Shown piece after piece: positions 41,595-48,161 of a stretch of DNA of 48,161 nucleotides. The notes beneath the pieces are model-generated. The model was not told where the DNA came from. It was given only the letters and a program-made list of their open reading frames with translations, and did not search any database. A program made the position numbers and the translations under genes. This DNA is from Nostocales cyanobacterium (GTDB lineage: Bacteria; Cyanobacteriota; Cyanobacteriia; Cyanobacteriales; Nostocaceae): assembly GCA_004292695.1 (NCBI GenBank), contig RDXV01000017.1, forward strand, positions 1 through 48,161, read 5' to 3'. How positions within the stretch are numbered: the stretch's first letter is position 1; each line of letters opens with the position of its first letter.

Positions 41595-44500
41595 TTAGAA
41601 CGGAAAACCCCCATATCCTGCAATAATTTTATCAACATCTTCCATAGTTTTAATCGTCTCCGAAATAATAGAAATAATATTTTGATAATGAATCAAATCA
41701 TCAAAATTTAACTCTCTTCCTTTCCTATCTTTCAACCATTTTTGACAAACTTGATAACCACCTATATAAAAATTCCAGATTTGCGGAGGAACTTGATCAA
41801 AATACTGCTCAGAATTTATCCAAATTTGTTGATTATTTTCATTATATTTGACTTGTTCCACAATATTAGAACCCGCAATAGGATAAGTTGCAATTTCCGT
41901 TCCTGTTACTTTCATTAAATGTAACTGTACTAACTTATCACCCTTTGCTACTAACTCCCAAAAAAGCGCGGAATTAGAAGTTAAAGGAAGACGGGGAAAA
42001 TCAATCTTTAAAAATTCAGCGTAGCGTTGACGATAAATAGGAGAATGAAAAACAGCGTAGATGTAATTAAAAATATCCTCTGGTCCAAAGGTTTGTTTTT
42101 GATCTCCTTTTCCATCAACAATAAATTCTAAACCTAATTTTTGGGAAAATTCAGTAATAAATTCTGGGGATAAATTCGGTCTACGTCCTCCTGGTGCGTT
42201 AGTTGGTGTAACATCAAATAAAGTTGGGGTATCTGTTGGGTAAAGGTAGAGAGGGAATAAATAACCAATACCTTTATTACTAATAGTCACCCTAGATTCA
42301 ACAATATTTTCTGTCAATAAAACATGATTAAAAATTCCTTCTGCAACCTGTCTAACTGTTATTAATCCTAAATTATCACCTAATAACATATTCTTCATAA
42401 CATTACCTCTTGACATACAATGAAATCCTCGTGAATTTCCAGTATAGTAAGTGTAACGAATATCAAAAGGACGATATAAAATAGAACTCACTAATTCTGA
42501 ATCAGGTTCAATATTATTCCCATTAACATGAGAATTAGCTTTTAAATCTTTCTGTGCTAATTCTACTTTCCAATCTCTTGTATCTTTTCCCAAATCATAC
42601 TTGCTTCTGGCCTCTTCAGTCCCAATATTCACAAAATCTCTCACAGTATCCCAAAGTTCTTTTTCTGTAAAATGAATAGTTAAATTATCCCGTGCTGTGA
42701 CAATTCCCACACTATTAACAGACATTATATTTGTGATTTTTACGGCATTTTCATATTCAATTTTCACATCAATATTTTGAGGTTTAAATAAATAAAATGG
42801 TGTATTTGGTTCTAACTTTTCCCAATGAGTAGATTGTAAATCATTTTCAGCCAACCAATGATATTTACCACCAATTAACTGTTTATTTTCATAAACTTCT
42901 CTAGTACCCCATAAATCAGCATGATAAACTGTTGCTAATGTTCCTAATTTCTTCTGACTATTTTGATATTTAATAAAAATTCCAATTGCTACACCTTGCT
43001 GAATATCAAAAACATTTTTATCCGGTGAACCGTCAGGAGAAACTTCTTTTTTCTTACTATTACCGTGTAAATCTAAAACATAAATTTCATCAAAAGTTTT
43101 CATCAAACTTTGACGCATTCCCCGAAAAGTGGGATTATCTAAATATCCATGATTAGTAACAAAAGCTAAAACCCCATAACCTGTTTTTTCAATTCTCCAC
43201 TGACTAAATCTAATAAACTTGACATAATCATCATTTAACCATTTAGGATTTCTCTCACCTAAAGATTTTCCATCTACTTCAAAATAACTATCTGTGGCAC
43301 TATTATAAATAGTATCCTTACCATTTAAAAGATTTTTGATCCAATCACCTGTATTTACAGAATGTCCAGAATAGGGAGGATTACCAATAATTACCATAAC
43401 TGGACTTTCTTGTTTAATTTCCTTTGCTGCTTCTGCTTCTTCCTTAATACGAGAACCAAAACTAATAACTTGTTCTTCTAATTGAAAAGATTCTTGTAAA
43501 GTATTAGTTAAATAAATCCTTAACCGTTCATCAGAACTAAAATCATAACCCAACTCTTGCAACTGTAAAACTAATTTGATATGTGCTACAGTATAAGGAG
43601 CAATCAATAATTCAAACCCAAATAAACGGGGTAATAAATGCTGACTCACATAACCAGACCACATCCCCTTTTGAGACTTAAAACTATCATAAATATAATC
43701 AATAATACTATACATAAAAGTTCCCGTACCCACAGCAGGATCGAGAATTAAAACTTGATGAGTTTCAATATCTCCCTCACCTTGGGAATTAGGAATTTTA
43801 ATCTTTTTAGAATCAGCTAAACCCTTACTAATATTAAACTTATTTTTTAGCACATAATCCACACTTTTAATGATATAATTAACAACAGGTTCAGGAGTAT
43901 AATAAACCCCTCTTGACTCCCGCATTTTGGGGTCATATTCAGCCAAAAAAGTCTCATAAAAATGAACAACAGGATCTTCCCTACGGGTACGTTTACCAAA
44001 ATCTTTAAGAATTTCCGCCATGTCTGTTTGTTGCAGAATATTCGCCAAAGTATCAACCGCCCAAGTAATTCGCTCATCTAAATCAGGACCTGCAATTTGT
44101 CCAAAAATACTTCTTAAAAAAGGGTTAGTTTTTGGTAACTTAAAAGCTGCCGTTTCCCGTGAAAAAGTTTGCACATTATCAGTATTACATCTAGCTGCAA
44201 ACAAACCATAACAAATAGTTTGGGCGTACATATCCGCAAATTGTTCACCAGTTAACCCCTTAATTAACAACCGTTCAAAAGATTCTAACTGTTGACGTAA
44301 CATACCCCCATTATCAACATCATTTAACGCCGTTTTAATCGCATCCCTAATTAATTGAGCTAAACCAGCCATCCGTTTAGCTAAATCTTTAGGTGTAGTA
44401 ACTTGGGTAACTTTAGTTAATAGAAACTGCCGGAAAAGTTGGTCAACTTCCTGTATTCCTGATTTATCAACTTTGATTTTTTTCTGTTTATCAAAACTTC

Positions 44501-44855
44501 CCAAAGAAGCAGATAACTTTAACTCACCTTGAACATACCAACGAAATTCTAAATAATCAGTTAAAATCAAATTACCCAAAGCATCAAAATAACGTAACAT
44601 TTGAGCAGTTTTCTCTACTTTCTTGAGCGAAACCCCAATATCCTTAGCCTCAATATGCCCAACTTCCAAAACCCCATTTTTTACCACAAAATCAGGCGCA
44701 CCGCAAGCAATTCTTTTTGGTTCATTAATAGCTTGAATCCCCGAATCCAAAGACTCAATTAACTTCTTCAAAGCAGGACGATAACTATGCTCAGTAGCAT
44801 TTTGAGTCTGATAAACTTGACTAACTTCTTGAATATAAACCTGTAGATAATTCAT
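41595..44855 (-). CDS. Single-chain restriction-modification enzyme (type IIG-like)
   Basis: A 1086-aa N6-adenine methylase fused to a nuclease domain. Residues ~1-130 hold a PD-(D/E)XK motif: APDFVV with D55 and GHIEAKD with E69/K71. The SAM site is LILDPAVGTGTFM (~368-380), the catalytic motif IV is NPPYSG (~491). The C-terminal ~300 residues, with unlike-family sequence, are the likely specificity region. No helicase (DEAD) motifs were seen, so it is not a full type ISP enzyme such as LlaGI, though it resembles their methylase half. Such enzymes cut unmethylated phage DNA and methylate one host site. The gene is A+T-rich and flanked by housekeeping genes, consistent with horizontal gain. 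Confidence 0.88.
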   Translation of the reverse strand: MNYLQVYIQEVSQVYQTQNATEHSYRPALKKLIESLDSGIQAINEPKRIACGAPDFVVKNGVLEVGHIEAKDIGVSLKKVEKTAQMLRYFDALGNLILTDYLEFRWYVQGELKLSASLGSFDKQKKIKVDKSGIQEVDQLFRQFLLTKVTQVTTPKDLAKRMAGLAQLIRDAIKTALNDVDNGGMLRQQLESFERLLIKGLTGEQFADMYAQTICYGLFAARCNTDNVQTFSRETAAFKLPKTNPFLRSIFGQIAGPDLDERITWAVDTLANILQQTDMAEILKDFGKRTRREDPVVHFYETFLAEYDPKMRESRGVYYTPEPVVNYIIKSVDYVLKNKFNISKGLADSKKIKIPNSQGEGDIETHQVLILDPAVGTGTFMYSIIDYIYDSFKSQKGMWSGYVSQHLLPRLFGFELLIAPYTVAHIKLVLQLQELGYDFSSDERLRIYLTNTLQESFQLEEQVISFGSRIKEEAEAAKEIKQESPVMVIIGNPPYSGHSVNTGDWIKNLLNGKDTIYNSATDSYFEVDGKSLGERNPKWLNDDYVKFIRFSQWRIEKTGYGVLAFVTNHGYLDNPTFRGMRQSLMKTFDEIYVLDLHGNSKKKEVSPDGSPDKNVFDIQQGVAIGIFIKYQNSQKKLGTLATVYHADLWGTREVYENKQLIGGKYHWLAENDLQSTHWEKLEPNTPFYLFKPQNIDVKIEYENAVKITNIMSVNSVGIVTARDNLTIHFTEKELWDTVRDFVNIGTEEARSKYDLGKDTRDWKVELAQKDLKANSHVNGNNIEPDSELVSSILYRPFDIRYTYYTGNSRGFHCMSRGNVMKNMLLGDNLGLITVRQVAEGIFNHVLLTENIVESRVTISNKGIGYLFPLYLYPTDTPTLFDVTPTNAPGGRRPNLSPEFITEFSQKLGLEFIVDGKGDQKQTFGPEDIFNYIYAVFHSPIYRQRYAEFLKIDFPRLPLTSNSALFWELVAKGDKLVQLHLMKVTGTEIATYPIAGSNIVEQVKYNENNQQIWINSEQYFDQVPPQIWNFYIGGYQVCQKWLKDRKGRELNFDDLIHYQNIISIISETIKTMEDVDKIIAGYGGFPF

Positions 44856-45358
44856 AATAAAAACTTAATGATTCAGGTGATTTAATAAATCTAAGGGTAA
44901 GATCCCCGACTTCTTTTTTGATGATGTCAATTAATTATGAAATAATATCAGAAGTCTGGAATCTGGTTTCTCTAGCTGAATAGTTACATAAAAACTCTTG
45001 CTTCTCTCTCTGCGCCTCTGCGTGAGCCATAAAAATTAATTAGCTTAATTATAAAATCAACCTATCTAAAAACCAGCAAAACCACCCAAACATTAATAAA
45101 ACTTAGATACAAACAACACCACCCAGAAAATATTCCCCTCACCCCACAAACAAAGAGAAAAGAAAAAACCAGAGTCACAATTCCTGAAATTGCCAGACTT
45201 CTATAATAATTGAAGAAGCAAGACAAAATAAAACATCAAGTACAACTCCAAACCTGCTATCCTGACAAGCTGAAAATTAGCAGATGCGGTAAATCGTATC
45301 TGGTTAGCATCTTGGTGGTTCAATACAAATTGTAGACAACGGGAGAACAACAAAATCT
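44856..45358. promoter_or_regulatory. Divergent intergenic region with the ndhH leader
   Basis: 503 bp between the type IIG gene and ndhH. It holds the dispersed repeat agatccccgacttctt at 44900-44915, a ctctctgcgcctctgcgtga repeat fragment near 45005-45025, and unique A+T-rich DNA. A gggaga near 45340 is the likely ndhH ribosome binding site. Promoter boxes could not be assigned. Confidence 0.55.
44900..44915. repeat. Dispersed repeat agatccccgacttctt, copy 2
   Basis: Exact 16-bp match to 14201-14216. It sits 45 bp upstream of the type IIG start, while copy 1 follows the first GTPase gene. Confidence 0.6.
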
Positions 45359-46543
45359 ATGAGTAGAATAGAAACCCGCACTGAACCAATGGTGCTAAAT
45401 ATGGGTCCTCACCACCCTTCAATGCACGGGGTTTTGAGATTAATTCTTACCTTAGACGGTGAAGATGTCGTTGACTGTGAACCAGTCATTGGTTATCTAC
45501 ACCGAGGAATGGAAAAAATCGCTGAAAGTCGTTCCACCGTCATGTACGTCCCCTACGTAAGTCGTTGGGACTATGCAGCGGGGATGTTTAACGAAGCAGT
45601 CACAGTCAACGCACCGGAAAAATTAGCAGGTGTAGAAGTTCCCAAACGCGCTAGTTACATCCGTGTAATTATGCTGGAACTTAACCGCATCGCTAACCAC
45701 CTATTATGGTTTGGTCCATTCCTCGCAGACGTAGGCGCTCAAACACCATTCTTCTACCAATTCCGGGAACGGGAAATGATTTATGACCTGTGGGAAGCAG
45801 CTACAGGTTATCGGATGGTAAATAACAACTATTTCCGTGTTGGTGGTGTCGCTGCTGACTTACCCTATGGTTGGGTAGATAAATGTGAAGAGTTCTGTGA
45901 CTACTTCATCCCCAAAGTAGACGAATACGAACGCTTAGTTACCAATAACCCCATTTTCCGCCGTCGTATCGAAGGTATCGGTACAATTACCCGTGAAGAA
46001 GCGATTAACTGGGGTCTTTCTGGTCCAATGTTACGCGGTTCTGGGGTGAAGTGGGACTTACGGAAAGTTGACCATTACGAATGTTACGACGATTTCGACT
46101 GGGATGTACAGACGGAAACCGCAGGTGATTGTCTCGCACGTTACATGGTGCGAATGCGGGAAATGCGCGAATCTGTAAAAATCATCAAACAAGCACTCAA
46201 AGGTTTACCCGGTGGACCCTTTGAAAACCTGGAAGCTAAACGGATGATGGCGGGTAAAAAATCAGAGTGGGATGGTTTTGATTATCAATATGTAGGTAAA
46301 AAAGTTTCACCTACCTTTAAAATTCCCAACGGTGAAATTTACTCCCGTGTAGAAAGCGGTAAAGGTGAATTAGGAATTTATTTAGTAGGTGATAATAACG
46401 TCTTCCCCTGGCGCTGGAAAATTCGTCCTGCTGACTTCAACAACTTACAAATTCTACCCGGTTTGTTAAAGGGTGTGAAGGTGGCAGATGTTGTCGTAAT
46501 TCTTGGTAGCATTGACGTAATTATGGGTTCTGTAGATAGATAA
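45359..46543 (+). CDS. ndhH: NAD(P)H-quinone oxidoreductase subunit H
   Basis: NdhH (394 aa) is the 49-kDa/NuoD-type subunit of cyanobacterial NDH-1, on the cytoplasmic side near the quinone site, serving respiration, cyclic electron flow and CO2 uptake. Family sequence: [22 protein letters not shown] at the N-terminus, then [31 protein letters not shown]49 in the HRGMEK motif corresponds, by motif, to the arginine near cluster N2 that is dimethylated in mitochondria. Further blocks: [25 protein letters not shown] and the C-terminal [18 protein letters not shown]. Length is normal. Unlike ndhAIGE, it is separate from other ndh genes. A MidA/NDUFAF7-type methyltransferase follows on the same strand. 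Confidence 0.98.
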
Positions 46544-46876
46544 AATTCACGATTACGTCAGAGTTTTAAGATATAGAGGTGTATTGTACATCTCTATATT
46601 TTTATCAGTTGGAGAAGGGAATAGGGAATAGGGAATAGGAAAGAATTAACCAACTATCGGGAGCATCCCAACTTTGAAAAATAACCGCAGCAACACCAAA
46701 AACTCTCTTAAATCCTCTTCCCTTTGTGTACTTTGCGTTCTTTGCGGTTCATTCATATTAGGACTTTGTAGCAATTCAAAGATTACCAAAAAATCAAATT
46801 ACACATTTGGGATGCTCCCCAACAATCAACAATCAACTATTATTCTCTCAATTTGTAAATAGCTAGTAATATTTTC
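46544..46876. other. ndhH-methyltransferase spacer with repeats
   Basis: 333 bp with a gggaata STRR (46618-46638) and an inverted-repeat element (46659-46819). A 62-aa frame (46674-46862) falls mostly inside that element and has an odd composition (CVLCVLCGSF), so it is probably not a gene. The first 60 bp hold a short gtattgtacatctctatattttt hairpin-like stretch that may end the ndhH transcript. Confidence 0.6.
46659..46819. mobile_element. MITE-like 161-bp element with 13-bp inverted ends
   Basis: gggagcatcccaa (46659-46671) is the exact reverse complement of ttgggatgctccc (46807-46819). The interior holds the ctttgcgttctttgcggttc phrase, a common cyanobacterial repeat fragment, and no gene. 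Each arm also has internal symmetry (gggagcatccc). Mobility is inferred from the inverted ends only. Confidence 0.45.
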
Positions 46877-48061
46877 ATGAATCATCAAACTCAACTTTTT
46901 GAAATTATTGCCAATCATATTACCAGTCATCCTCAACAACGGATTACTTTTGCTGAATACATGGACTTGGTTTTATATTATCCAGAATATGGCTATTATT
47001 CCAGTGATGCAGTAAATATTGGTTTTCAAGGTGGGGACTTTTTCACCTCATCCAGTTTAGGTGATGATTTTGGTGAAATACTAGCTATGCAATTTTTCCA
47101 AATGTGGGAAAATTTAGGTAAACCTCAACCTTTTTATTTAGTAGAAATGGGAGCAGGTAAAGGCATTTTAGCTTCTCAAATCTTGAATTATTTAAAATCA
47201 CAACATCCAGATTTTTTTCAACTTATAGAATATATCATTGTTGAAAAATCTCCAAATTTACAACAAGAACAAAAACAGAGATTAGCCGAATTTTCTGTAC
47301 AATGGTTAAACTGGGAATCTATCAAATCTAACTCTATCATCGGTTGTTTTTTCTCCAATGAATTAGTAGATGCTTTCCCAGTTCATCAATTTACAATTGA
47401 AGATGGAACACTAAAAGAGATTTATGTCACAATTCAAGAACATAAAAAAAATGATATTTCTGATTATTCATTTACAGAAATATTAGGTGAACCATCTACA
47501 CCAAAATTAGCAGAATACTTAAAGTTAGTGAATATTGATATTAGTCAAAATACTTATGAAAATGGTTATCGCAGTGAAATTAATTTAGCCGCATTAGATT
47601 GGTTGAGTATAGTAGCAGACTGCTTGCAAAAAGGTTATGTGCTAACAATTGATTATGGCTACCCTGCCAGTCGTTATTATCTCCCCAGGCGATCGCAAGG
47701 AACTCTACAGTGCTACTACCAACATCGTCATCATAACAACCCCTACATCAATATAGGCAAACAAGATATTACCGCCCATGTTGATTTTACAGCTTTAGAA
47801 ATTTGGGGTGAAAAATGTGGTTTAAAAACAGTAGGTTGGACACAACAAGGTTTATTCTTAATGGCATTGGGTTTAGGTGAAAGAATAGCCGCCCTCTCCC
47901 ATCAAGAACAGTCCATATCACAACTACTCAAACGCCGGGAAGCTCTACACCAACTCATTTCCCCAGAAGGACTAGGAAACTTTGGGGTATTAGTCCAAAG
48001 CAAAGGTTTGACAGAAATACAAGCTAGGCGATCGCTTCAAGGACTGACAATACCAGAGTAG
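46877..48061 (+). CDS. MidA/NDUFAF7-family SAM-dependent methyltransferase
   Basis: A 394-aa class I methyltransferase of the DUF185/MidA family. Motifs: GGDFFTSSSLGDDFGEILA (50-68), SAM motif I LVEMGAGKGILASQI (~88-102), FSNELVDAFPVHQF (family NE-x-x-DA-x-P motif), and the C-terminal YGYPASRYYLPRRSQGTLQCYYQHR...QDITAHVDFTALE. In mitochondria NDUFAF7 dimethylates a conserved arginine of NDUFS2, the homologue of NdhH. The gene lies 333 bp after ndhH in the same direction, so NdhH is a natural candidate substrate. Cyanobacterial function is not established. The stop codon abuts a gtgacag repeat. Confidence 0.93.
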   Translation: MNHQTQLFEIIANHITSHPQQRITFAEYMDLVLYYPEYGYYSSDAVNIGFQGGDFFTSSSLGDDFGEILAMQFFQMWENLGKPQPFYLVEMGAGKGILASQILNYLKSQHPDFFQLIEYIIVEKSPNLQQEQKQRLAEFSVQWLNWESIKSNSIIGCFFSNELVDAFPVHQFTIEDGTLKEIYVTIQEHKKNDISDYSFTEILGEPSTPKLAEYLKLVNIDISQNTYENGYRSEINLAALDWLSIVADCLQKGYVLTIDYGYPASRYYLPRRSQGTLQCYYQHRHHNNPYINIGKQDITAHVDFTALEIWGEKCGLKTVGWTQQGLFLMALGLGERIAALSHQEQSISQLLKRREALHQLISPEGLGNFGVLVQSKGLTEIQARRSLQGLTIPE

Positions 48062-48161
48062 GTGACAGGTGACAGGTGACAGGTGACAGGTGACAGTAAA
48101 GAGTTCATCTATTCCCTATTCCCTATTCCCTATTCCCTATTCCCTATTCCCTATTCCCTAT
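48062..48161. repeat. Composite STRR: gtgacag + linker + ccctatt (second copy)
   Basis: Begins at the methyltransferase stop with about five gtgacag heptamers, then the linker agtaaagagttcatct (48095-48110), then ccctatt heptamers to the window edge. Order and linker match 22070-22220. Confidence 0.93.

Follow-up and report, generated by a model that had tools for sequence, protein, structure and literature searches.

A MidA/NDUFAF7-family methyltransferase gene next to ndhH in a Nostocales cyanobacterium and the predicted dimethylation of NdhH Arg-49

In a 48,161-nucleotide stretch of DNA from a Nostocales cyanobacterium (the window, which is the whole contig RDXV01000017.1 of a 5.39-Mb genome), the gene for subunit H of NDH-1 (ndhH) is followed on the same strand by midA, a gene for an S-adenosylmethionine (SAM)-dependent methyltransferase of the MidA/NDUFAF7 family. 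Judging from what its mitochondrial relative is known to do and from the comparative results presented here, MidA probably dimethylates R49 of NdhH during NDH-1 assembly. The ndhH-midA adjacency is real, recurs among cyanobacteria and is in all likelihood functional, and modification of R49 in cyanobacteria is a strong prediction, not a result.

Mitochondrial NDUFAF7 acts on this arginine of the NdhH homologue NDUFS2 and is required for complex I assembly (PMC3829151; PMC9006661). It methylates Arg-85 early, ahead of the formation of a 400-kDa subcomplex (PMC3829151), and the arginine is situated 3.7 Å from cluster N2, which is lost when the arginine is mutated (PMC8042128). Dimethylation of Arg-65 in Nqo4 of Paracoccus denitrificans has been proven by mass spectrometry, whereas the corresponding arginine of Escherichia coli is kept but unmodified (PMC3750175). 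Evidence summarized in a review points to alphaproteobacterial NDUFAF7 homologues performing the same methylation (PMC9006661).

The subunit-H identity of the window NdhH is unambiguous from its sequence matches (Table 1). The window MidA scored 264.5 bits against PF02636 (curated cut-off 23.3), which places it in the MidA/NDUFAF7 family; it gave no NCBIfam match and is the only PF02636 match of its own genome. Its relatives in the PDB are 4f3n (E = 4.6e-39)/4g67, 1zkd and the Dictyostelium NDUFAF7 homologue 5ztz (E = 3e-23), to which the similarity covers residues 27-379. The earlier note on this DNA, made from the letters alone, had described a SAM motif and a NELVDAFPVHQF block as intact, and the alignment with 5ztz bears this out: the window motif EMGAGKG and the NELVDAFPVHQF block pair with EMGPGRG and AQEFFDALPIH, and across 10 aligned sequences including these two the residues E86, G88, G90, G92, E161, D164, A165 and P167 (L030 numbering) are invariant. 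The SAM-binding glycine motif and the E..DA.P block are thus common to the window protein and the Dictyostelium enzyme.

The register of the target residue was obtained with phmmer, in which residues 7-394 of NdhH paired with 43-430 of the mature mitochondrial chains. Since the two spans are equal, R49 corresponds to R85 in mature numbering, which confirms the match between R49 and the dimethylated NDUFS2 arginine that the earlier note had drawn from the HRGMEK motif. NDUFS2 has the same arginine in HRGxEK, the bovine peptide KCDPHIGLLHRGTEK carries the motif as HRGTEK (PMC3750175), and chloroplast NdhH also reads HRGMEK. The cyanobacterial substrate would differ from the mitochondrial one in being the NdhH of a ferredoxin-driven NDH-1.

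Linkage and co-occurrence of MidA with complex I

A search of 386 Cyanobacteriota genomes gave a MidA match in 192 and an NdhH match in 278. Linkage was scored in 134 genomes, namely those with the positions of both genes among the matches listed, plus G005, which was scored adjacent from a C-terminal ndhH fragment; this sample is short of all 189 Cyanobacteriia genomes, and many of the small genomes of family f25 fall outside it. In 27 of the 134, midA was located downstream of ndhH on one strand within 5 kb, compared with about 0.3 expected at random. These genomes belong to six families (14/42 in f1, 2/2 in f3, 1/2 in f4, 7/11 in f6, 2/3 in f22, and G223 in f17). Such a survey had been named beforehand as a test, and its outcome rules out an adjacency private to this genome or due to chance.

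The same order was found in 3/4 genomes of f43, outside the 27. The order is reversed in f50, a family that we take to be Gloeobacter-like (a label used as a lead only): there midA precedes ndhH with 79-94 bp between them in 4/5 MidA-positive genomes. In G592 the two genes are convergent and 848 bp apart. The ndhH-midA gap in the loci read ranged from 35 to about 4000 bp, with short gaps of 35-59 bp in L005, L020, L116 and L120, and its contents differed between lineages. Given that both the size and the gene content of the gap vary, the linkage outlives operon structure.

Two further features of these neighbourhoods were seen. A similar small open reading frame (ORF) of 148-179 codons separates ndhH from midA in L002, L004, L007, L009, L010, L012 and L139; it looks GAF-like by eye, a 60-residue piece of it had no Pfam match, and the gap in the window is too short to hold it. 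In the MidA-less loci L027, L028, L047-L049, L190-L205, L252, L253 and L256-L258, ndhA follows ndhH after about 100-200 bp, and among the MidA-positive loci read this succession was found only in two f27 genomes (L250, L255), at 407-502 bp.

Linkage to complex I genes extends to other lineages. A profile scan with the MidA alignment was run over genome contigs and the best 80 named loci were kept; at least 18 of them had a complex I gene in the flank, which is a lower bound because many flanks are short. Nine Nitrospirota loci read midA-nuoA-B-C-D (L088 ends at the contig edge), one Nitrospirota locus has nuoB near midA on the opposite strand, L118 of the Aquificota (Persephonella) reads nuoC-D-I-midA and L133 of the Acidobacteriota nuoA-B-midA. 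Among the cyanobacteria of this set, midA follows ndhH in four and adjoins ndhC-K-J in L107 and L134. Both MidA-positive genomes of f34, another class of the phylum, carry midA directly before nuoA-B-C-D (nuoA-C as read from translations, NuoD and NuoH backed by profile matches). In at least 14/111 MidA-positive Pseudomonadota, midA was located about 12-13 kb beyond nuoD on the same strand, and in 13 regions selected by this spacing midA was directly preceded by nuoL-M-N in the same orientation in all 13, with the last ORF at most 1.2 kb away as measured from alignment ends (nuoM and nuoN being our reading of the two ORFs after nuoL).

The presence of MidA was then compared with that of its proposed substrate. 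Among 150 Pseudomonadota genomes, NuoD was above the cut-off in 111/111 with MidA and in 22/39 without it (Fisher p = 5e-12, kinship ignored). MidA was found in 182/189 Cyanobacteriia, and all 182 had an NdhH match (as fragments in G005); six of the seven MidA-less genomes had NdhH and one (G046) had neither. Of the 59 MidA-positive genomes outside the cyanobacteria, 48 were searched; ten of the remaining eleven show nuo genes adjoining midA and the eleventh is represented by L097. A NuoD-like match was obtained in 47 of the 48, above the cut-off in 41, and the motif could be read in 43 (unread ones include the partial G387 and G401 and the split G415), each with at least one HRG copy. The best NuoD copy of G416, G411 and G413 is HTG and the second is HRG, and G426 has one HRC and one HRG copy. 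MidA thus occurs almost only where NuoD/NdhH occurs, with four exceptions that are considered below.

Two of these cases deserve separate mention. The two NuoD copies in G416 (L165/L285), G411 (L182/L286) and G413 (L184/L287), which are Thermomicrobiales/Acidobacteria, comprise a Thermus-like HTG and an HRG form, possibly reflecting two complex I isoforms. G046 belongs to the same family as the window and retains ndhA, with ndhH and midA missing; this may be a co-loss or an absent stretch, so the genome was not used as evidence. When 16 kb of DNA of a congener served as query, almost all matches were to dispersed repeats.

The relationship of the MidA sequences was examined in a quick, unrooted tree of 93 rows with long branches. 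The cyanobacterial sequences formed a single clade of 23 rows (Shimodaira-Hasegawa-like approximate likelihood ratio test 100) apart from Pseudomonadota, whereas the Dictyostelium sequence grouped with three Pseudomonadota rows (99). Given this separation, a recent transfer of MidA into cyanobacteria from the lineage of mitochondria seems unlikely. The origin is left undated by the tree because of its lack of a root, quick construction and long branches. A proteobacterial origin was reportedly argued in a 2018 paper.

The residue after the target arginine

Carroll et al. point out that the residue after a methylated arginine is in most cases glycine (PMC3750175). The residue after R49 was examined with a motif pattern that covered Ser, Thr and some further residues but did not include Ala. 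It matched in 38/290 Cyanobacteriia genomes, only in f23 (7), f28 (27) and f50 (4), and all 38 matches were Ser. MidA was missing from 35 of the 38; the remaining three (G590, G598 and G618, all f50) carry a further NdhH, encoded immediately after midA, that reads HRG. In a further f50 genome (G604) the midA-linked NdhH is HRG and the unlinked copy HRA, so that 4/4 f50 genomes with two copies combine a linked HRG form with an unlinked HRS or HRA form. Among the MidA-less, NdhH-bearing cyanobacteria that were read, 37/42 have Ser/Ala and 5/42 Gly at this position. HRG was found in the window and in 58/58 cyanobacterial rows classed as MidA-served (49 plus 9 second copies), the four unlinked f50 copies in MidA-positive genomes being classed apart from these. 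The nine second ndhH copies, which occur in several MidA-positive cyanobacteria (L278-L281, L263, L264, L277, L276, L284), are 64-88% identical to that of the window.

On the NdhH tree, from which L197 with its frameshifted ndhH was omitted, the linked and unlinked f50 copies share one 14-row clade of f50 and f57 (support 99). This rejects the idea that midA and the linked ndhH of f50 were acquired together from outside and argues for duplication of ndhH within the lineage.

Complex I also exists without the mark. The arginine of the homologous NuoCD subunit of E. coli is unmodified and Nqo4 of Thermus has Thr at the arginine site, and neither the E. coli nor the Thermus composti control genome gave a PF02636 match. 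The MidA-less cyanobacteria with HRS or HRA would be a further group of this kind.

The locus in the window

The features of the locus are given in Table 1. Both genes were found intact in the ORF list, with 333 bp between them, and the earlier note was correct on their adjacency and common direction. It had also regarded co-transcription as uncertain because of this gap and a repeat element in it. The repeat is present, together with a strong hairpin, and given these two elements in the gap co-transcription is doubtful. The arms of the repeat (46659-46679 and 46799-46819) are 21 nt each and 86% complementary, and the 13-nt arm end has no further copy within the window. A consensus scan of 46500-46900 scored no terminator, the hairpin included, and no sigma-70-type promoter. 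An RNA element near the pair was ruled out, as 45000-48161 had no Rfam match at gathering scores.

Table 1. Coordinates of the features at the ndhH-midA locus
Feature	Position	Strand	Description	Evidence
ndhH	45359..46543	+	NAD(P)H-quinone oxidoreductase subunit H, 394 aa, NuoD/NDUFS2 homologue, proposed substrate	NF005649 (E = 6e-255), PF00346, phmmer 6hum_H (E = 1.9e-242)
HRGMEK codons of ndhH	45500..45517	+	R49 codon 45503-45505, G50 codon 45506-45508	sequence, phmmer register, motif survey
Hairpin, possible terminator	46570..46600	+	14-bp stem, 3-nt loop, 26 bp past the ndhH stop	fold prediction
Inverted-repeat element, resembling miniature inverted-repeat transposable elements	46659..46819		in the ndhH-midA gap, arms begin GGGAGCATCCCAA	repeat search
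midA	46877..48061	+	MidA/NDUFAF7-family SAM-dependent methyltransferase, 394 aa, proposed NdhH-R49 dimethylase	PF02636 (E = 1e-78)

Beside ndhH, on the opposite strand (41595-44855, -), lies a gene for a 1086-aa restriction-modification protein, which matched REase_MTase_IIG in PADLOC with 1015 bits and has the Pfam specificity domain Type_ISP_C. The contig ends in perfect tandem arrays of the heptamers AGGTGAC and CTATTCC (48060-48096 and 48109-48161), and the assembly probably broke inside such repeats.

Alternative explanations and implications

Several observations weigh against dimethylation of R49 by MidA. The four exceptions to co-occurrence, all draft or partial genomes, are G406 (a PF02636 match, no NuoD found), G389 (a PF02636 match and only a hydrogenase-like HKG protein), G589 (MidA-positive and 93% complete, no NdhH match) and G361 (a weak PF02636 match and NuoH, no NdhH match). 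Close linkage is missing, or the genes are on different contigs, in 107/134 cyanobacterial genomes. HRG occurs without MidA in cyanobacteria (4/32 f28 genomes and G237) and in 19/19 of the MidA-less Pseudomonadota NuoD that were read (16 HRGAEK, 3 HRGTEK; three of the 22 NuoD-positive genomes were unread), by which HRG alone is rejected as a mark of methylation. On the NdhH tree, the link between G50 and MidA amounts to about three independent contrasts, none of them opposite, and is not significant; significant co-evolution was therefore rejected and the link between motif and MidA is suggestive only. No report of cyanobacterial NdhH methylation was found in the literature searched, most subscription papers being outside its reach, and methylation terms were absent from the text of three papers on cyanobacterial and chloroplast NDH structures. 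Finally, a study of Wolbachia reports methylated A and C upon expression of its MidA in E. coli (PMC12455994).

If MidA were a complex I assembly factor whose main target is a different residue or subunit, or which works as a binding chaperone, with the R49 motif kept only for N2 packing, then linkage and co-occurrence would fit equally, given that they suit any complex I client. The position of midA beside nuoN in Pseudomonadota or nuoA in f34, and not nuoD, agrees with this, as does the persistence of HRG without MidA in E. coli-type NuoCD. We consider this explanation unlikely, given that the linked gene in cyanobacteria is usually ndhH, that in f50 the midA-linked NdhH paralog is HRG and the other is not, and that this very arginine is the one that the mitochondrial relative is known to modify (PMC3829151; PMC9006661). 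A target outside complex I, for instance DNA as with Wolbachia, would make the proximity to ndh/nuo genes incidental and is compatible with the many genomes that lack close linkage. It leaves the nuo linkage unexplained, however, and neither the varied nuo/ndh junctions in several phyla nor the complete co-occurrence with NuoD in Pseudomonadota would be expected for a general DNA methyltransferase, which makes it quite improbable. Still less probable is that the adjacency here reflects inherited gene order and carries no function. Order and strand are the same in 27/27 ndhH-midA pairs, which may therefore go back to one ancestral event, and the gap in the window now carries a mobile-like repeat and a hairpin; against this stand the lineage-specific junctions ndhH-midA, midA-ndhH, ndhC-K-J beside midA, midA-nuoA, nuoN-midA, nuoAB-midA and nuoD-I-midA.

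Dimethylation of NdhH-R49 by MidA is thus the explanation we favour. By analogy with mitochondria, we infer the reaction, its timing and an effect on NdhH-NdhK docking and N2: newly made NdhH would be modified by MidA ahead of its docking on NdhK. The earlier note had suggested that NDH-1 assembly in cyanobacteria uses the same modification as mitochondria. Its view that MidA serves NDH-1 gains from the recurrent adjacency, the varied nuo junctions, the co-occurrence with NuoD and the motif and paralog pattern; the HRGMEK motif that it invoked proves little alone, since MidA-less Pseudomonadota share HRG. It had also expected the origin of the modification to be pushed well before mitochondria, which is not new because a bacterium, P. 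denitrificans, is already known to carry the mark (PMC3750175). This alphaproteobacterium is kin of mitochondria, and its evidence does not extend to cyanobacteria, Nitrospirota and others; the reach beyond Proteobacteria is the new part.

More tentatively, arginine dimethylation of NuoD/NdhH could be an ancient MidA-dependent step of many phyla that is optional in cyanobacteria, where in lineages that lack MidA the target arginine is usually followed by Ser/Ala and not by glycine. Gloeobacter-like cells might then hold two isoforms, an RG form encoded beside midA and methylated and a distant RS/RA form left unmethylated, and so two types of NDH-1 that differ in the tuning of their N2 clusters. 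The predictions are directly testable in standard cyanobacteria, in existing cryo-electron microscopy maps and in strains of the Gloeobacter-like group, where the pair of NdhH paralogs provides an internal control. Should the modification be confirmed, what is known from mitochondria and a single alphaproteobacterium would prove widespread in the biogenesis of complex I and would extend to the photosynthetic NDH-1 that serves cyclic electron flow and CO2 uptake.

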